This document shows positions 4,941 to 16,254 of a stretch of DNA of 33,729 nucleotides, one piece after another. Under the pieces are notes generated by a model. That model was given only the letters and a program-made list of their open reading frames with translations. It was not told where the DNA came from and searched no databases. The translations under genes and the position numbers were made by a program. Numbering within the stretch: position 1 is the first letter of the stretch; each line of letters starts with the position of its first letter. This DNA is from Verrucomicrobiota bacterium (lineage in GTDB: Bacteria > Verrucomicrobiota > Verrucomicrobiia > Limisphaerales > UBA1100), in the NCBI GenBank assembly GCA_030747505.1, contig JASLKQ010000032.1, positions 1 to 33,729 of the forward strand, given 5' to 3'.

Positions 4941-5027
4941 GCCGGAGTGGCGGAATTGGTAGACGCGGCGGATTCAAAATCCGCTTCTCGCAAGGGAGTG
5001 AAGGTTCGATTCCTTTCTCCGGTACCA
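4941..5027 (+). tRNA. tRNA-Leu (anticodon CAA), intact
   Basis: The 87-nt sequence folds as a class II tRNA with a long variable arm. The acceptor GCCGGAG pairs with CTCCGGT (one G-U), the anticodon stem GCGGA/TCCGC encloses the loop TTCAAAA with anticodon CAA (decodes UUG), the T-loop is TTCGATT, and CCA is encoded. A run of five T follows. The tRNA is the integration target of the element that begins immediately after it: bases 4945-5032 are copied exactly at 7003-7090. Confidence 0.95.
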
Positions 5028-5032
5028 TTTTT
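4945..5032 (+). repeat. 88-bp direct repeat, left copy (attL-like)
   Basis: It runs from acceptor-stem position 5 of tRNA-Leu through the CCA and five T, and matches 7003-7090 base for base. Bases on either side of the two copies differ. Confidence 0.93.
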
Positions 5033-5084
5033 CTATAGCTGTATAACAGAGTTAAACAGCAATCCTTCTTAGTGAACCCGACTC

Positions 5085-5113
5085 GTAAGACGCACTGCTA
5101 CTCAGTGTCTTAC
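5085..5113. other. Hairpin at left inner end of the element
   Basis: GTAAGAC (5085-5091) pairs with GTCTTAC (5107-5113). Inside it ACTG pairs with CAGT around the loop ctact, leaving a two-base bulge (gc). No T-run follows, so a terminator is unlikely; it abuts the 17-bp arm-like repeat. Confidence 0.5.
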
Positions 5114-5127
5114 ACAGTTTTAACACA
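5111..5127 (+). repeat. 17-bp direct repeat, left copy (arm-site-like)
   Basis: tacacagttttaacaca, identical to 6909-6925. It begins 78 bp after the left 88-bp repeat and lies just upstream of the integrase fragment. Confidence 0.6.
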
Positions 5128-5137
5128 CTGAAATGTT

Positions 5138-5392
5138 ATGTCTGAGAAGGTTTGTTTTCCAATCTGCTACGGCAGAGGCCGTTGCCGTGTCACCATCTAT
5201 AACCGCACTACTGCCCTACCCTATTACCGAATCTCCTATCAAATTGGATCCATTCGGCATCAACGAACATTCAAAACCCTAAAGGATGCAAAAGCGTATG
5301 CCAAGGAGGTCTCCGCAAAGCTAAAGTCTGATGACATCATTTCAGAAATCGCAGACCGGTTCTTTGGTCGAGATATCCGTTGCCGTGTCTAA
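5138..5392 (+). pseudogene. Probable N-terminal fragment of a tyrosine recombinase
   Basis: The 84-residue product contains YRISYQIGSIRHQRTF followed by KTLKDAKAYAKEVSAKL. This beta-strand/helix pattern resembles the arm-binding N-terminal domain of tyrosine integrases, where a three-stranded sheet is followed by a helix rich in Ala and Lys. The reading frame then stops (DIRCRV), and no catalytic domain (R...HxxR...Y) is found in any frame up to the next gene. A second short open stretch (about 5412-5507, FYIRNQGRR...) may be part of the same decayed gene. Its place directly inside the left end of a tRNA-targeted element supports an integrase origin, but sequence similarity alone is weak. An intact small DNA-binding protein is the alternative. 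Confidence 0.45.
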
Positions 5393-5516
5393 AGACAGCG
5401 GCAAATTCGGGTTTTACATCAGGAATCAGGGGCGTAGGGTTGGGGCGTCGATACGAAAAAGAATCAAACGGTCGGAAATCAAGAATATCAACTTAGATTG
5501 GCACTAGCAGATATTG

Positions 5517-6215
5517 ATGAGGTATATAAAAAAATTCATACACAAACTCGTGACACGAGGGCAGCGTAGATTCGCTCGAAAATCTTCCTTCAAATACGAA
5601 ACACCTATAAATGTGGACAAAAGGACGCGGCTCTCGGAAAATTCTTTTGTCGGGCGCTACTCTTACATAGGATCAGGCACTATTTTCGGAGATGTGCGGA
5701 TTGGGCGCTTCTGCTCAATCGCTGGCGATTTTTCAATTATCTCAGGCGATCACCCCCTCGACTATCTAAGCACCCATCCATTTGCCTACAACAACGAAAT
5801 TTTTGGCGACGACCCGGAATATAGAAATATAGACTTTAAAATCAACAGACCGATACCTAAGCCCAGTCCACCTCTAGAAATTGGAAACGATGTCTGGATT
5901 GGAAGCCGAGCAATTATTCTAAAGAAAGTTCGTTCGATTGGCAACGGCGCGGTCATTGGAGCAGGCGCGATCGTAACAAAGGATATCCCGGCTTATGCCG
6001 TGGTAGGTGGCAATCCTGCCAGAATACTCAAATACAGGTTCGACGAAGCGACAATTTGCAAACTAGAGGATCTCAGGTGGTGGGAGCTACCACTATGCCA
6101 AATCAAACATCTGGATTTTTCAAACCCTTATGATTGCATTTCACGCTTGGAAGAAATCCGAAAAAATTCAAAAATCACTTCACCCGCCCTCATTCCTCCC
6201 CGTGAAAGTTCTTGA
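5517..6215 (+). CDS. CatB-like hexapeptide acetyltransferase (xenobiotic/sugar O-acetyltransferase)
   Basis: This is a left-handed beta-helix acetyl-CoA transferase of about 232 residues. Hexapeptide turns are visible in [20 protein letters not shown] and in the later [15 protein letters not shown] and [28 protein letters not shown]. The catalytic His is expected in [13 protein letters not shown], as in CatB/Vat xenobiotic acetyltransferases. The C-terminal RWWELP also fits that group. ATG at 5517 is preferred over TTG at 5514. It is cargo of the tRNA-Leu element. The family includes both drug acetyltransferases and surface-polysaccharide O-acetyltransferases, and the sequence does not decide which. 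The Lys/Ile-rich product suggests a base composition different from the flanking genes. Confidence 0.85.
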
Positions 6216-6301
6216 GGGCTTGGGCGGTCTTCACCACTCACTATAAAATCCCCTGCCAGTTACAGTATGCAGACTCAAGGGCGATGACGTATCCTCACGT
6301 C

Positions 6302-6544
6302 ATGAAACAGCTACTCTTGATATTTGCGGTGGTGGCGTTGGTGGGGTGTGGGCCTACCATTTCCGACCCCATTGTTGAGAAGGCGATTCGAGAGGAACTC
6401 AAGAAACCGACAGGCGTACTCACTCAAGCGGATTTGGAGAAGGTGACGGAGCTGAGTCTCAGAGACAATCAACTGACTGATGTGAAGGGTCTGGAGAAGC
6501 TCACGCGGTTAACGGGTTGTAATGTCATCTCGATTTTTGGTTGA
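6302..6544 (+). pseudogene. Truncated leucine-rich-repeat lipoprotein
   Basis: ATG at 6302 gives MKQLLLIFAVVALVGC, a lipoprotein signal peptide with Cys16 as the lipidation site. A short helical segment follows, then the start of a leucine-rich repeat (VTELSLRDNQLTDVKGLEKLTRLT). In this protein type the repeats normally run on for several more units; here the frame breaks off after one and a half repeats in GCNVISIFG, so the gene appears cut. An upstream in-frame ATG at 6284 would add six residues. It lies within the tRNA-Leu element. A genuinely short 80-residue lipoprotein cannot be excluded. Confidence 0.5.
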
Positions 6545-6613
6545 GTTCCGTGATGAAAACCCCCGAGCAGTTTCAGGCTCGCCATTCGGGTTCGGGGCGG
6601 TAACGTGGGGGAC

Positions 6614-6814
6614 GTGAAGCTCCTGCTGCCATTACTGCTGATTGCCTTCTGTGGATGTTCAAGCCCTTTTAGAATAAAAAGCACATACCCGCAGCACCGA
6701 GGCCTCATTGGCGAATGGCAATGGCAGCGGCAATTTAAAAAGGAAAAGACCGCGCAAAAGGCCGAGGAGGTTCAGCGGCGATTAGAAAAAGAAAGGGCCG
6801 AGGAGCCTTTTTAA
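6614..6814 (+). CDS. Small putative lipoprotein with basic/acidic coiled tail
   Basis: GTG at 6614 (or GTG at 6605, three residues longer) gives MKLLLPLLLIAFCGCSS, a plausible lipoprotein signal with Cys in the lipobox. A roughly 50-residue soluble part follows, ending in a charged helix (KEKTAQKAEEVQRRLEKERAEE). No family is recognised. It lies inside the tRNA-Leu element, 70 bp after the truncated lipoprotein, and could be cargo. Short length and a non-ATG start keep confidence moderate. Confidence 0.4.
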   Translation: MKLLLPLLLIAFCGCSSPFRIKSTYPQHRGLIGEWQWQRQFKKEKTAQKAEEVQRRLEKERAEEPF

Positions 6815-6908
6815 ATCACTCCGAAAAAAAGAGGGGGTGTATATACAAGCAGCCCTCGTTGGGGGGTGGTGGGTATGGCGTGGTGGTATCCTCCGGAGGT
6901 TAATTCTC

Positions 6909-6925
6909 TACACAGTTTTAACACA
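6909..6925 (+). repeat. 17-bp direct repeat, right copy (arm-site-like)
   Basis: Identical to 5111-5127 and in the same orientation. It ends 77 bp before the right 88-bp repeat, mirroring the 78-bp spacing at the left end. Confidence 0.6.
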
Positions 6926-6983
6926 ACTTCACTCGCTTTTAGGTGCGGTTTGCGTTGTCAAAATTAGTGTTTAGACCAATAAT

Positions 6984-7003
6984 CTTCTCAGTTCACTGAG
7001 AAG
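6984..7003. other. Hairpin abutting the right 88-bp repeat
   Basis: CTTCTCAG (6984-6991) and CTGAGAAG (6996-7003) form a perfect 8-bp stem with loop ttca. The 3' strand replaces the natural 5' acceptor bases of the tRNA copy. No T-run follows. Confidence 0.6.
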
Positions 7004-7085
7004 AGTGGCGGAATTGGTAGACGCGGCGGATTCAAAATCCGCTTCTCGCAAGGGAGTGAAGGTTCGATTCCTTTCTCCGGTACCA
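6999..7085 (+). tRNA. Second tRNA-Leu(CAA) copy with broken acceptor stem (probably non-functional)
   Basis: Everything from acceptor position 5 to CCA is identical to the tRNA at 4941-5027. The first four bases are AGAA instead of GCCG, so positions 2-4 cannot pair with the 3' acceptor strand CTCCGGT. Automatic tools may call it a tRNA, but it is best read as the displaced tRNA end left at the right junction of the element. Confidence 0.7.
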
Positions 7086-7090
7086 TTTTT
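7003..7090 (+). repeat. 88-bp direct repeat, right copy (attR-like)
   Basis: Exact copy of 4945-5032. It ends in five T shared with the left copy; the sixth T here (7091) is C at 5033. Confidence 0.93.
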
Positions 7091-8794: not shown

Positions 8795-10666
8795 ATGAAA
8801 ACAATACTTACTGCCTTGATGATTCTGTTCAGCGCAAATCTGTATGCGAGCGATGACTGGTTAACAGACATTGAAAAGGCTCAAGAACAGGCTAAGGCCG
8901 AAAAGAAAATCGTTCTACTGTTGTTCACCGGATCCGATTGGTGCCCTCCCTGTAAAGCTTTGAAGAAAAACGTATTTGATACCGATAAATTCAAAACGTA
9001 CGCGAAGGAGAATCTGGTACTCGTGGAGCTCGATTTCCCCCGTGATAAAAATAAAATCACTAAGGAGCAGTCGGCTTACAATTGGTCCCAAGCCAAAAAA
9101 TTTGAGGTCAAGGGATATCCAACGGTTATTGCGCTGGACACAGACGGCAAGAGAATAACTAAAGGGTGGCAAGAGATACTCAAAGCGGTTAAATATGATC
9201 ATCGCAAAGGCCAAACTGGTGGAAAACCTGATGGTGAACAAGGTGGAAAACCAGTCGGCCCTCCAAATAAAGTCGACGGAAAAGGTGGTAAAAAACCAAA
9301 TAGAGAAGTTTTAAGAAAACCGGGAAGTAAGGGCGGGAGGAAACCTAGTGGCGAACAAGGCAAAAAACCTAGTGGCGGACAAGGCAAAAAACCTAGTGGC
9401 GGACAAGGCAAAAAACCTGATGGTGAACAAGGTAGAGAAAGGCTCAACTGGAAAGAGTTGCTCGGATTAACCGACGAACAGGCAAAAAAGTTCCACGCAG
9501 TCATGAAGAAGTTCCGCGAGGAACTCGAAAAGATTAATGCGGATAAGTCGTTGAATCCCGAGAAAAAGATGAAGGCCCGCGATTCGGCACGCAAACGAAG
9601 GAATGCAAAGCTGGCTCAAATCCTCACCGAAGAGCAAATGAAAAAGTTTAGGAAGATCTGGCGCGCAAACGCCCGTCCTGGCAATGCAGAAGGAGATGAC
9701 AGCTCAATCACTCCTCAACAAAGGGCAGCAATGGCTAAACTAATGCGTTGGTTCAGATCTCAAGTAAGACAAATTCTAAAATTGAATCTGTCAAAAGAGG
9801 ATAAAAACCAGAAAATTGCTAAACTCAAAAACATTTATCGTCAAAAGAGATCTCAAATCCTTTCTCCTGAGCAGGCGCGTGCTTGGGCGGCCAAAGACGG
9901 CGTAAGCGTCTCTGAGGGAGGCCAATCTGCTGAAGGCTCCGACTCAGGTCCCGATCCAACTGAAGTGCCAACCATTGGTAAACTTGGTGACGACCTGGCT
10001 AATAAAGCCAATTCGCTCAACCCCGAGTATCTGGTCTTCTCACCAAAACAAAAGCTCACGCAAGCAGTACCTCTGGTGATCTTTCTTCATGGCAGCGGAG
10101 TCATGGGAGATGACATCCAGAAAGTCAGAGGCCCGTCCGAGCAAGTGTGGAAAGGAATTGAGAAATACAAAAAAAGCCCCTGCATCGTTGTCGCTCCACA
10201 GGCAAGCAAGAAAGCGAGTGAGCCCAGAGGCTGGGTCCCCGAGCACCTGAATATCCTTCTGGACCATCTTAAAAAAACACTTAAGGTGGACGAAAAAAGA
10301 ATCTATCTCACGGGCAACAGTATGGGCGGATATGGTTCGTGGGCTTGGGGAGGACATAATCCCGAGAATTTTGCGGCCATTGCGCCTGTATCCGGAGGCC
10401 TCGGCGAACGCGGACCGAAAGATGTAACACCAGATTTGAACAAATGGGCGGCTAATCTGGCCAAAGTCCCAGTCTATGCATTTGCTGGAGGCAAAGACCG
10501 GGTGGTTTCTGCCGAAAGATCTGAACGAATGATAGCTGCAATTATAAAAGCGGGCGGTAAAGAGGCAAAAATTAAAATTTACCCCGACGAAGGCCATGGC
10601 GCCTCGCGTGTTGTTTTCGGTGGTTCCGATTTTTACCAGTGGATATTCTCTAAGAAACGGCGGTAA
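8795..10666 (+). CDS. Exported thioredoxin-like / repeat linker / alpha-beta hydrolase fusion
   Basis: The 623-residue protein has a signal peptide (1-18) and a thioredoxin-like domain (about 20-135) with redox motif WCPPC at 49-53 and the cis-Pro in KGYPT (106-110). A Gly/Lys/Pro-rich linker (about 140-213) is built on GKKPSGGQ repeats. A charged helical region (about 218-365) has LTDEQAKKF and LTEEQMKKF, repeats reminiscent of Spy/CpxP-type LTxxQ motifs. The C-terminal alpha/beta hydrolase (about 400-620) has an oxyanion-type LHGSG, the nucleophile Ser509 in GNSMGG, Asp568 in GGKDRVV and His601 in DEGHGAS. The last domain resembles predicted esterases/peptidases related to polyhydroxybutyrate depolymerase and feruloyl esterases. 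The combination suggests a periplasmic or surface enzyme. Substrate unknown. Confidence 0.85.
   Translation: MKTILTALMILFSANLYASDDWLTDIEKAQEQAKAEKKIVLLLFTGSDWCPPCKALKKNVFDTDKFKTYAKENLVLVELDFPRDKNKITKEQSAYNWSQAKKFEVKGYPTVIALDTDGKRITKGWQEILKAVKYDHRKGQTGGKPDGEQGGKPVGPPNKVDGKGGKKPNREVLRKPGSKGGRKPSGEQGKKPSGGQGKKPSGGQGKKPDGEQGRERLNWKELLGLTDEQAKKFHAVMKKFREELEKINADKSLNPEKKMKARDSARKRRNAKLAQILTEEQMKKFRKIWRANARPGNAEGDDSSITPQQRAAMAKLMRWFRSQVRQILKLNLSKEDKNQKIAKLKNIYRQKRSQILSPEQARAWAAKDGVSVSEGGQSAEGSDSGPDPTEVPTIGKLGDDLANKANSLNPEYLVFSPKQKLTQAVPLVIFLHGSGVMGDDIQKVRGPSEQVWKGIEKYKKSPCIVVAPQASKKASEPRGWVPEHLNILLDHLKKTLKVDEKRIYLTGNSMGGYGSWAWGGHNPENFAAIAPVSGGLGERGPKDVTPDLNKWAANLAKVPVYAFAGGKDRVVSAERSERMIAAIIKAGGKEAKIKIYPDEGHGASRVVFGGSDFYQWIFSKKRR
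9341..9436 (+). repeat. Four 24-bp tandem repeats inside the hydrolase gene
   Basis: Units begin at 9341, 9365, 9389 and 9413. Units 2 and 3 are identical; units 1 and 4 differ at a few bases. They encode the GKKPSGGQ linker and may vary in number between strains. Confidence 0.85.
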
Positions 10667-12023: not shown

Positions 12024-12119
12024 TAAGGCAAATCAGTCTTATTTATGCCAGCCACAAAGGATTCGGTTGCAGCAATCCCCTACCCAAGGCATCCTCTTTT
12101 CCATCCAATGGAAATTCTC

Positions 12120-14000
12120 ATGATAAATCGAATAATGTTTATACGAACATTCTGTGCACTGCTTATTTTACTGGGGTCAGTTCGCGGCGAAACGGCTGAA
12201 ACCGCCAAAAAGAAGCTGCAGATCTTTATCCTTGCAGGCCAGTCGAACATGGTGGGCCACGCAAACCACCATACCATCGCAACCCTTTACCAATCGGATA
12301 ACGCCAGAGACAAGAGACTCCTTCAAATGGTGTTCAGGAACCGAAGCGGTCTATCCAAAAAAGTGCTAAACGAACAACTAAAGCGAACCAGAAGGATCGA
12401 TGAACTCACCGGCGGGATTTCAAACGAGAAAATCAAGGCGATGAGGGCTGGCCCTGAGAAAACGGCTTTGGAAACGGAGGTAAAGAAGCTCAAGGAGGAG
12501 TCTGAGGCTTACAAGAACAAGATCATTTCAGCGTTCGTCGTCTCCGATCAGGTTTACATCACGTCTATTGCAGACGGCAACCGGGCCTCCGGCCCTTTAA
12601 GTGTGGGTTATGGCGGCAACCGTGATAAAATCGGTCCTGAATTCGGATTCGGCCTCTCAATGGCTCAAAAAATGGATGCGCCCATCCTGATTATCAAGAC
12701 CTCCTGGGGAGGCAAGTCCCTGAATTATAATTTCAGGCCGCCTTCAGCCGGGCCTTACAAACTCAATGAAAAGGAAAAGGCCGCAAAGAACGCTGCAGAT
12801 ATTGGCAAGAACGCGAGCCTCAATTGGAGGATGATGAATGAGGCCGTCCACAAAGTGCTTAAGGACCTGAAAAAACATCACCCGGCCTATAATGCAAAAG
12901 TGGGCCATGACATGGCAGGTTTTGTCTGGTTCCAGGGCTTTAACGACCAGTTTTCCGATGAGTTCCGCAATAACTACCGAAATAACATGGTTCATTTTGT
13001 GAAGGACGTACGAAAAGAATACAAGGCACCCTCTATGCCCTTTGTAATTGGGGTACTGGGAACCAATATGACCAAGGAAGGCGTCGACAAGAACGCGGTC
13101 TCGGTGGCTCAACGTGAGGCAGCTGCTGCTCCTGAATTCAAGGGTAATGTTGTTTCGGTGGATAGCTACAAGGTTTATGATCTGGAAGCACGCAAGGTTT
13201 ATGATAGCGGTTGGCCAAAGCATTTTGCCGAATGGTGTGTTGTAGGCAGCGACCGACCTTATCATTACCTGGGTAGCGGCAAGTTTTTTGTTCGCCTGGG
13301 TGACGCCTTTGCCAACGCCATGATTGGCCTGATAGAGAACCCGAAAGGGTCAAATTCAGAAAAAATCGCCGTTAAGAATGGAGAAAAGATCGCCTTTTTA
13401 GGCGACTCCATTACTGCTGCAGGCAAAAGGCCCGGTGGCTACTGTCAATTGGTTTTAGCAGCACTAAAAGATCAAGGCATCGAAGCGAAGCCGGTATTTG
13501 CCGGAATTGGCGGACATAAATCCAACCAGATGCTGGCACGTCTGGAAAGGGATGTCCTTAGGCACAAACCTGACTGGATGACCCTAAGCTGTGGAGTCAA
13601 TGATGTGTGGCATGGCCAACGCGGAGTGGATTTGGAGTCCTACAAAAAGAACATCAGAGAGATTGTAGACAAGACGCAGGCCGCCGGAGTAAAGGTGATG
13701 CTACTCACCTCAACCATGATCAAGGAAGACCAGGGTAATGCCCTTAATCAAAAATTGATGGGTTACAACGAGTTCCTCAAGGCATTGGCAAAGGAGAAGA
13801 AATGTTTATTGGCTGACTTAAATGCCGATATGCAGGCTGCACTGAAAACCTTCCCGACGGATGCACCCAAGGGAAAGCAGTTGACCAGTGATGGAGTGCA
13901 CATGAACAAGGCCGGCAACATCATGATGGCAAGAGGTGTTGCCAGAGCTTTTGGACTCACAGACCAGCAACTGGATCAATCGGCAAAAAACTGGAAATAA
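12120..14000 (+). CDS. Double esterase: SASA acetylesterase domain plus SGNH/GDSL hydrolase domain
   Basis: ATG at 12120 gives a clean signal peptide (MINRIMFIRTFCALLILLGSVRG); in-frame ATGs at 12108 and 12045 are less likely. The N-terminal half begins FILAGQSNMVGH, block I of sialate O-acetylesterase-like (SASA/DUF303) carbohydrate esterases, with Ser42 as nucleophile; a charged helical insert follows. The C-terminal half is a second SGNH hydrolase with Ser430 in FLGDSIT, Gly/Asn in CGVND (Asn494) and the Asp591-x-x-His594 pair in DGVHMN. Both domains keep their catalytic residues, so the protein may remove two acyl groups or act on two positions of a polysaccharide. Its place beside the sulfatase cluster supports a role in glycan de-esterification. 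The start falls in the gap divergent from the DUF1080-like gene. Confidence 0.88.
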   Translation: MINRIMFIRTFCALLILLGSVRGETAETAKKKLQIFILAGQSNMVGHANHHTIATLYQSDNARDKRLLQMVFRNRSGLSKKVLNEQLKRTRRIDELTGGISNEKIKAMRAGPEKTALETEVKKLKEESEAYKNKIISAFVVSDQVYITSIADGNRASGPLSVGYGGNRDKIGPEFGFGLSMAQKMDAPILIIKTSWGGKSLNYNFRPPSAGPYKLNEKEKAAKNAADIGKNASLNWRMMNEAVHKVLKDLKKHHPAYNAKVGHDMAGFVWFQGFNDQFSDEFRNNYRNNMVHFVKDVRKEYKAPSMPFVIGVLGTNMTKEGVDKNAVSVAQREAAAAPEFKGNVVSVDSYKVYDLEARKVYDSGWPKHFAEWCVVGSDRPYHYLGSGKFFVRLGDAFANAMIGLIENPKGSNSEKIAVKNGEKIAFLGDSITAAGKRPGGYCQLVLAALKDQGIEAKPVFAGIGGHKSNQMLARLERDVLRHKPDWMTLSCGVNDVWHGQRGVDLESYKKNIREIVDKTQAAGVKVMLLTSTMIKEDQGNALNQKLMGYNEFLKALAKEKKCLLADLNADMQAALKTFPTDAPKGKQLTSDGVHMNKAGNIMMARGVARAFGLTDQQLDQSAKNWK

Positions 14001-14023
14001 TGTTCGTTGGGTTCGATTCCCAA
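14000..14023 (+). repeat. 24-bp T-arm-like direct repeat, left copy
   Basis: atgttcgttgggttcgattcccaa is not longer than its exact partner at 14911-14934. It contains TTGGG-TTCGATT-CCCAA, a 5-bp stem with a perfect tRNA T-loop sequence. Its first base is the last base of the esterase stop codon. Confidence 0.8.
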
Positions 14024-14225
14024 AACACATCCAACTCTTTTCTAGGTTATTCCAATTGGAATCTGTGGGTTCCTGGAATTCCTGTAATTGGGTTCAGGGG
14101 TGAATCCAGAGAATTAGTCGTGGAAACAACTGTGGAATCTGTATCGAGACATGTGAGATCTCCCGGGAGACTTGGGTCTCATCGGGATTGATGAATTACC
14201 TGAGATGATCGGGTGGAAATAAATA

Positions 14226-14243
14226 GCCGCTATTCGCTGCGGC
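14226..14243 (-). terminator. Possible terminator downstream of the membrane-protein gene
   Basis: On the minus strand GCCGC and GCGGC pair around an 8-nt loop and are followed by tatttattt. It lies 15 bp after the stop codon at 14259. Confidence 0.4.
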
Positions 14244-14258
14244 ATAGTGGGAACACGT

Positions 14259-14801
14259 TTATTCTCCTGATGATTTGTTATTACTCTTACCTAAGAGCTT
14301 CATAAGCCATACAACAGCCAAGGTTACAATAAGTAAAACTATGACAAGCATACCAATTACAAAAACCCCACGTACTCCCTCCAATCCTAGATGGTGACTT
14401 ATTACGGCAAAGAGAAAGAAAGCTGCCAATGAACCAAAAGCAAACAAGAATTGAACGCCTGGGGTTGGGAATTTTTTGAAAAACCAAACGAAAAAAAACG
14501 CTGCGAGGGTGGTAGCAATTCCCGCTACAAAAACTCCTGCTACATCTGTTCGGGATTCCGGAATGAGGAGAAAGGCTACTAAGGTAATGGCTGCAGATAT
14601 ACAGCCAGCGGCAAATATGATCTCTCCGAATTTTTTGAAGAAGCTAATTCACGTAGTTATCAAGTATCCATTGTCCAAATCAAGGTATTTACCCTCTCTC
14701 CACCCTGATTCAGAGAAGTTCAGAGGATCATCACTTCTATCCCAATGGTCTCCCCAATTCCCACGAGAAATACTGAGATTCGTTAAACCGAAAAATCCCA
14801 C
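14259..14801 (-). pseudogene. Small four-helix membrane protein interrupted by an in-frame TGA
   Basis: From GTG 14801 the frame reads a polar N-terminus rich in Trp and Asp (NWGDHWDRSDDPLNF, later GWREGKYLDLDNGYLITT) for 50 codons, then meets TGA at 14651-14649. The same frame continues without interruption for 129 codons, ISFFKKFGEIIFAAG and so on, to the stop at 14259. That second part has about four hydrophobic helices in two similar halves (VAGVFVAGI and VRGVFVIGM occupy matching places). It has no ATG or GTG; its only usual start, TTG 14447, would remove half the helices. One base change from TGG to TGA would explain the break. Recoding of UGA or start at a rare ATT codon are alternatives. 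Family not recognised. Confidence 0.5.
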
Positions 14802-14910
14802 ATACCAACATCACTCTAGAAATAGGGAGAACATTGGGAGAATTGGGTCTCTCAGTGTTTTCTGAGTGATCAGTGTGATAGCCGTATTTCCCCTGAAAAC
14901 TGATGATTCG

Positions 14911-14934
14911 ATGTTCGTTGGGTTCGATTCCCAA
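14911..14934 (+). repeat. 24-bp T-arm-like direct repeat, right copy
   Basis: Exact copy of 14000-14023, 911 bp downstream in the same orientation and 12 bp from the end of the sulfatase gene. Confidence 0.8.
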
Positions 14935-14946
14935 GTTACAACTGGT

Positions 14947-16254
14947 TTAGTTGAGTCCAGGATGTTTGGCCTTGAATTCAGGGAAAGGTGCCGGAGCATT
15001 CTTCGGGAACCGGTCCAGAATCATCTGTAACCGCTGACGGCGGCCCGGGGCAATTTTATCCAGAGGGTTCACCTCTCGCTCCTGACGTGGATCCTTGATT
15101 AGATTATGAAAGGCACCCTTGTTGTCGACGATATGGTACCAGTCACGTATCATGCGAAAGTCACCAATCTGGGAATAGATCCAGCTGCGCTTTTTAAAGG
15201 GATCCTCATCGCCGCGCAAACTGGGCAGAAAGGATTTACCATCCAGCTTAAGCGTTTTGGGCGGCGTTACTCCCCCCAGATCCAGAAAGGTCGGATAGAG
15301 GTCGGTAAAATCAATCAGGTCACGCGACACAACACCGCCCTTGTTAATATAGGGCCTAAGAAAAGGTGCCCGGACAATAAACGGCACGTGCGCACCCCAG
15401 TCAGCCTGACGCCCCTTACCTTTGGGATAAGGTTCTCCATTGAGTGTACCCGGTGAGGCCGAACCGTTATCTCCGGTAAATACAATGAAGGTGCGGCCCT
15501 TCAAACCCGATTCATCCACTGCAGCGACCAGCTTGCCCACCAAATGGTCCATGTAGGTAACATTGCCTGCGTACAGAGCCGGTTTTCCTTCCGGTGCACT
15601 GGCTTTATTCATTGGTGTAGTGGTATGCGGTCCGTGGGTCAGGAGCATTGGATAATAAATCAGGAAAGGGTCATCCTTGTGGCGCTTTACATAATCAATC
15701 AGGAAGTTGTTGATCGTGTCCGGACCATAGGGAACCTTGCTGCGCTTACCATTGGTCACGAGTAACCCATTCCAGAAACGTTCTTCGGTCTCAGGTTTAC
15801 CTTCCTCGACTCCCGGCCACACACAGTGCTCATCAAACCCGTGTTTCTTCAAGGCATCAGGATCCTTCCCCAAATGATTGACCTGCCACTTGCCTCCAAT
15901 GGCCGTGGCATAGCCTGCTTCGCGCAATAATCGGGCAAAGGTAACAAACCGATCGGCACGCAATCCCGCCCCGCCCCATCGAGGCACATCGTAATGCTGC
16001 ACCCAGCCGTGGTGGCAGGGGTATTGACCCGTTAGCAATGTCACCCGGGTGGGTGTACAAATTGGAGTACACCAAGCGGTTTGGTAAAGCACTCCCTCCT
16101 TGGCCAACCGGTCAATATTGGGGGTCGGATGCTTTGCTCCATAGCAACTAATCCAGTCGCGCCCCATATCATCAACCATTATAAAAATGATATTGGGTTT
16201 CTGGGCTGCTCCAGCCTGTACAGCGAATAGCAGTAAAAGAATCAGCTTTTTCAT
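14947..16254 (-). CDS. Exported formylglycine-dependent sulfatase (CTPTR type)
   Basis: The 435-residue type I sulfatase has a signal peptide (1-17). KPNIIFIMVDDMG carries the metal-binding Asp pair (28-29), and the modification motif is Cys66-TPT-Arg70 followed by LLTGQYP. The metal-site segment FTGDNGSASPG is near the middle. The usual GKWHLG motif reads GKWQVNHLG here, so the common His may be displaced by three residues. It is the last gene of a three-gene set: its ATG overlaps the stop of the PSCyt/DUF1592 gene as ATGA, implying coupled translation. The enzyme needs a formylglycine-generating enzyme, which is not in this window. The natural sulfate ester is not evident from sequence. Confidence 0.92.
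   Translation of the reverse strand: MKKLILLLLFAVQAGAAQKPNIIFIMVDDMGRDWISCYGAKHPTPNIDRLAKEGVLYQTAWCTPICTPTRVTLLTGQYPCHHGWVQHYDVPRWGGAGLRADRFVTFARLLREAGYATAIGGKWQVNHLGKDPDALKKHGFDEHCVWPGVEEGKPETEERFWNGLLVTNGKRSKVPYGPDTINNFLIDYVKRHKDDPFLIYYPMLLTHGPHTTTPMNKASAPEGKPALYAGNVTYMDHLVGKLVAAVDESGLKGRTFIVFTGDNGSASPGTLNGEPYPKGKGRQADWGAHVPFIVRAPFLRPYINKGGVVSRDLIDFTDLYPTFLDLGGVTPPKTLKLDGKSFLPSLRGDEDPFKKRSWIYSQIGDFRMIRDWYHIVDNKGAFHNLIKDPRQEREVNPLDKIAPGRRQRLQMILDRFPKNAPAPFPEFKAKHPGLN

Follow-up and report, generated by a model that had tools for sequence, protein, structure and literature searches.

What occupies the 0.9 kb between two exact, tRNA T-arm-like repeats that lie between a pair of convergent genes in a Verrucomicrobiota bacterium, at a place where no tRNA is attached? 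The locus is part of a stretch of 33,729 nucleotides that was analysed as a whole and is called the window here. A reading made from sequence alone had reported exact 24-bp repeats between two convergent genes without an attached tRNA, and this description was confirmed. The repeat ATGTTCGTTGGGTTCGATTCCCAA, which includes TTGGG-TTCGATT-CCCAA, is found on the + strand at 14000-14023 and again at 14911-14934, 911 bp from start to start. Copy 1 is overlapped by the stop codon of an esterase-like gene (12045-14000, + strand), and a sulfatase gene (14947-16254, - strand) ends 12 bp beyond copy 2. The 3' ends of these two genes form the host flanks, with the left end of the element following copy 1 and its right end preceding copy 2. 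No tRNA was detected by ARAGORN at 14000-14934. By simple counting, an exact 24-bp pair would be expected to occur by chance about 2e-6 times in 34 kb.

We consider it likely that 14000-14934 holds a gene cassette, non-autonomous and integrated site-specifically at a core derived from a T-arm, and that a tyrosine integrase acting in trans moves it. The anatomy of the cassette is well supported; the enzyme that moves it and its present-day mobility are only inferred.

The core belongs to a family of dispersed sites

In the genome from which the window comes (a MAG of 3.46 Mb in 253 contigs), the 20-mer GTTCGTTGGGTTCGATTCCC is present in five exact copies, and variants occur besides. The core pattern was matched in 15 of the 98 genomes searched, the window's own included, and a reversed control pattern gave no match in any of the 98; the repeat is therefore not a chance motif. 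Exact matches to a 21-mer in public genomes were mostly in Verrucomicrobia MAGs, many of them from seawater according to their titles. The core is present at many chromosomal sites with unrelated DNA alongside, and many copies lie 30-100 bp from a contig end, as expected because repeats break assemblies. The few exact core matches in Acetobacterium, Neomarinimicrobiota and Flavobacteriaceae carry neither of the long ends described below and were taken as chance or unrelated, and the single exact match among viral contigs has unrelated flanks.

Some related sites run on into a tRNA-Gly-like 3' end, CACCCGCTCCA, and no complete tRNA was found at the cassette loci that end in this way. At six sites of cassette type (L098, L100, L124, L168, L089 and L018:4408), the right side is a tRNA-Gly 3' end (CCCATCACCCGCTCCA or close to it), which suggests tRNA-Gly as the ancestral target. 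We infer that the core derives from the T-arm and 3' end of a tRNA, most likely tRNA-Gly.

Two conserved ends enclose different cargo

The conserved unit extends well past the 24-bp repeat. A left end (LE) of about 220 bp including the core occupies 14002-14217 (+ strand, nhmmer 224 bits), and a right end (RE) of about 240 bp including the core occupies 14700-14942 (+ strand, nhmmer 249 bits) and forms the 5' leader on the cargo strand. The order is host-core-LE-cargo-RE-core-host. Elsewhere the same ends enclose different cargo, often head to tail with common cores. Further complete units with other cargo were found at L106 35-1613, L093 7532-5376, L104 5033-6303 and L136 1151-119; in L106, L136 and L093, among others, consecutive units stand head to tail with one core between them. 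Of the 91 distinct core sites, RE, core and LE are all present at 25, RE alone at 33, LE alone at 12 and neither end at 21. The arrays and the boundaries between core and arms are thus shown directly.

Host-left flanks cease to agree with the consensus to the left of GTTGGG, and host-right flanks do so beyond the right edge of GATTCCCA, so the exchange is placed within roughly GTTGGGTTCGATTCCC. We first took TTCGATT for the central overlap in a core of 12-7-12 layout; this is uncertain, as the integrase loci suggest the arms GGAATCGAA and TTCGATTCC with a 7-bp spacer. The exact overlap can be placed no more precisely than within GTTGGGTTCGATTCCC.

The distribution of these ends is narrow. The LE model matched 18 of 196 genomes, namely all nine members of g1 and all seven of g5 that were searched and two of g6, which belongs to another family than g1 and g5. 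No match was found among the 196 genomes in any other genus, including g2, g3 and g4 of the same family. Separately, a 127-kb contig of a Pirellulaceae MAG (L172) carries LE and RE and a 70-kb contig of a Planctomycetaceae MAG (L145) carries RE; either inter-phylum transfer or misbinning could account for these Planctomycetes-binned contigs.

Fixed slots with variable content and empty sites

The sulfatase gene to the right of the cassette marks a slot that can be followed among relatives. In G019, G017, G008, G001 and G002 its orthologues likewise stop at this core, which is degenerate in G002, and beyond the core no two of the six genomes, the window's included, have the same DNA. Apart from the window's cassette, what lies there is a different cassette bearing an acetylesterase gene, a gene for an integrase, a further RE cassette, a phosphoesterase gene and unrelated sequence. 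Orthologues of the esterase-like gene in G015 and G017 also stop at the core with other DNA beyond, and clustering of flanks revealed the same pattern of fixed slot and changing content at other slots. Conversely, G017 and G018 have the same LRR cassette (90.8% identity as far as the core) in different slots.

Empty sites were also found. G019 and G001 share a slot in which left flank, core and right flank follow each other with one core; in G002, LE adjoins the corresponding left flank on one contig and RE the right flank on another. A contiguous pair is also available: L149 has one core where the matching region of G012 (L097) has an insert of 2.07 kb, bounded by a degenerate core on one side and an RE-core on the other. 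Both the empty sites and the changing content of fixed slots are therefore observed rather than inferred. The window's own slot was never seen empty in the relatives examined, because the esterase-like and sulfatase genes are not neighbours there.

Cargo and a shared leader

The cargo of the window's cassette is an open frame of 129 codons (14259-14648, - strand) for a small, very hydrophobic and probably membrane protein. No ATG, GTG or TTG is present in the first half of the frame, so its 5' end is unusual or decayed. An open frame in G004:C286 is 38% identical to it, and no cassette ends were found near that frame.

Cassette cargo is usually a single gene read from RE towards LE. Pfam domains identified in it include sulfatase, GH5 cellulase, SASA esterase, exo/endo-phosphatase and peptidase M90, as well as laminin-G, LRR, GYF_2 and zinc-ribbon. 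Homology to RE continues, in eight cassettes whose genes are otherwise unrelated, through the ribosome-binding region and codons 1-18, which encode a signal peptide, mostly of lipoprotein type (e.g. MKVLIPIVIGLLVVGC). Mean pairwise nucleotide identity of this leader is 0.71 over codons 1-18 and falls to 0.31, 0.28 and 0.26 in the next three blocks. The shared leader is thus shown: in several relatives RE gives unrelated cargo a start codon and a lipoprotein signal peptide. Export itself is inferred from the sequence. The window's cassette does not have this signal-peptide leader. At about position 2412 of L090, the shared signal peptide terminates in a stop codon (MKVLIPIVIGLLVVGGGK followed by the stop) directly before the cargo's own start codon, as though a gene had been inserted downstream of the leader.

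Two other repeats were noted in the window. At 4941-7090, an insert of 2.06 kb separates a tRNA-Leu (CAA) from an exact 88-bp duplicate that covers almost all of it but lacks its first 4 nt. Within the insert are what remains of an integrase N terminus (5138-5392), an ORF resembling hexapeptide acetyltransferases and a short ORF for an LRR lipoprotein, whose LRR motif also occurs in cassette cargo. At 9224-9436, 24-bp tandem repeats lie within an ORF (AAACCTAGTGGCGGACAAGGCAAA), apparently encoding a low-complexity repeat protein.

Tyrosine integrases associated with the core

Complete cassettes contain no integrase ORF, and no complete cassette was found that has its own integrase together with both LE and RE. 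Integrase genes do, however, adjoin the core or LE at three loci. Two of them, in G000:C214 and G005:C193, share 32% identity over 369 aa; the third, of tyrosine type, is in G017:C6 and occupies precisely the slot that core copy 2 marks in the window. In this one relative, the position of an integrase gene at the shared core is a direct observation; only a 133-aa N-terminal fragment of the gene is present, at a contig end, and it matches phrog_1 (phage integrases) with an E-value of 1.7e-6. An integrase ORF in L098 with a weak phmmer match was not confirmed by Pfam.

Relatives of the G017 fragment were found in 31 of 117 genomes. Of 25 loci of this family that were examined, 20 (that of G017 among them) have a T-arm 97-128 nt upstream of the gene start, in a fixed orientation opposite to the gene; the background is 1.7% of random 75-nt windows. 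Except at G017, each of these T-arms leads on to the CCA-bearing acceptor end of a tRNA, frequently tRNA-Gly, and a complete tRNA was found at none of these loci. The core of the cassettes thus resembles a target site of this integrase family that has been moved to non-tRNA slots. In the window's own genome, a remnant of the same family was also observed beside a tRNA-Gly 3'-end fragment (G000:C220:62391-62735, L253).

Three cassette-bearing genomes (G001, G014 and G015), all incomplete MAGs, have only two strong Xer-like tyrosine recombinases each, and it remains possible that Xer proteins act as the cassette recombinase. The core does not appear to resemble known dif sites, and the reading as an Xer/dif site was set aside on this ground.

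Both identities that the sequence-only reading had offered for the repeat are supported, that of a portable att core and that of a miniature mobile element's end. The core recurs at many sites and bounds elements with conserved ends, single-copy sites exist in relatives, and one relative has a tyrosine integrase gene at this core. It had also proposed looking for other copies in the genome and for a single-copy empty site in relatives. The former were found (five exact 20-mers and variants), and the latter was found at other slots, not at the window's own. Neither observation that it had named as refuting, the same content without the repeats or repeats present at random, was made. What it overlooked were the conserved ends of about 220 and 240 bp, the cargo and the link to tRNA 3'-end integrases.

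Discussion

In the explanation that we favor, a tyrosine integrase of the family targeting tRNA 3' ends would be supplied in trans. An excised circle (RE-core-LE) would recombine at its core with a single chromosomal core, giving host-core-LE-cargo-RE-core-host; repeated integration would build head-to-tail arrays, and excision or replacement would change the content of fixed slots at gene 3' ends. Captured genes would be exported because RE would provide them with a leader and a ribosome-binding region, to which the RE of several cassettes adds a signal peptide of lipoprotein type. The circular intermediate, the action of the integrase in trans and the benefit of swapping surface hydrolases are inferred. 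Several points count against this explanation: circle forms were not observed, no complete cassette has an integrase of its own, G001, G014 and G015 have only the two strong Xer-like recombinases, the window's slot was not seen empty, the occupied state in G002 is split between two contigs and the G017 integrase is merely a fragment. A bolder reading, which we stop short of calling probable, is that integron-independent cassettes with a T-arm core swap single exported-protein genes among many fixed slots in three genera of marine Verrucomicrobia, their ends bearing a translation start and a lipoprotein signal peptide for immediate export.

Other explanations account for part of these observations. 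It is unlikely that the cassette is a non-autonomous transposon, of DDE type or other, that targets a T-arm-like sequence and duplicates about 24-31 bp of it. Target duplication would also yield one core when empty and two when occupied, and the ends are conserved and non-coding; however, the core hardly varies between unrelated loci and is part of the recurring RE-core-LE junctions in arrays, a 24-bp target duplication would be unusually long, integrase genes are located at the core and no transposase was recognised in the complete cassettes examined. We similarly doubt that dispersed gene leaders and trailers are exchanged by homologous recombination between similar 200-bp ends without any dedicated recombinase. 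LE and RE are long enough for this, mosaic and internal partial ends are common and no single integrase is common to every cassette-bearing genome. Yet many sites have only the core in common with their neighbour (the 12 LE-only and 33 RE-only sites), homology ends near the core and empty sites are known.

Two further readings are very unlikely. An integron cassette or CALIN array would fit the single-gene cassettes, the head-to-tail arrays and the common recombination site, and GTTGGGT in the core conforms to GTTRRRY. Against this, the integron integrase (TIGR02249) was above its curated cut-off in none of 16 genomes, both ends are conserved over more than 200 bp whereas attC is found at one end only, and the common core extends well beyond GTTRRRY on the host-right side. 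Intergenic repeats encoding a structured RNA, tRNA-like or regulatory, without mobility are equally hard to sustain. In some single sequences a fold is obtained for the hairpin CCCCTGAAAACGGGG and for the T-arm stem, but no Rfam family reached threshold (best tRNA-type match E=1.6), covariation in the hairpin and core arms was not clearly above the control, and the content between copies varies and empty sites exist. A whole tRNA or tRNA-like RNA was set aside, with no complete tRNA and no Rfam match at threshold, and a phage or plasmid origin was rejected as no DNA match was obtained in phage or plasmid collections.

Reading the locus as a site-specifically integrated cassette would account for the T-arm-like repeats that these genomes have in the absence of tRNA genes, and for the frequent breaks of MAG contigs at them. 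If true, it would amount to a second, integron-like route for single-gene exchange among free-living ocean bacteria. The cargo (sulfatases, glycoside hydrolases, esterases, peptidases and surface lipoproteins) plausibly affects which algal polysaccharides can be used, and a cassette end with its own export signal is a testable gene-capture device.

In the open-access literature searched we found nothing close to these cassettes; most subscription papers were outside the search, and their novelty is a matter of judgement. The nearest published ideas found are tycheposons and the tRNA-linked integrase elements of picocyanobacteria. Tycheposons are tRNA-bordered elements of 4-200 kbp with a tyrosine recombinase, described in Prochlorococcus and other marine bacteria (PMC10872708). 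Like the cassettes, they are marine, involve tyrosine recombinases and tRNA-type sites and move ecological cargo, but the window's cassette measures 911 bp and has neither a recombinase inside nor a whole tRNA gene. The picocyanobacterial elements (PMC10187409) likewise differ in size and in carrying a recombinase. Tyrosine-integrase islands, IMEs and satellites at tRNA 3' ends share the T-arm-type core at both ends of the element, a related integrase family beside tRNA 3'-end fragments and single-core empty sites; in contrast to them, the cassettes are about 1-2 kb when complete, as a rule without an integrase, and sit in arrays at non-tRNA slots at gene 3' ends. MITEs and other non-autonomous elements are also small, have conserved ends and, as inferred for the cassettes, are mobilised in trans. 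In the cassettes, however, no terminal inverted repeats or link to a transposase were seen, and they bear protein-coding cargo with a shared start region. Integron gene cassettes resemble them in being small, mostly of one gene, head to tail and variable in cargo at a fixed site. No integron integrase was found and no attC recognised (attC folding was not modelled), and the cassettes described here differ from those of integrons in having two conserved ends, many dispersed slots and a built-in leader with a signal peptide.
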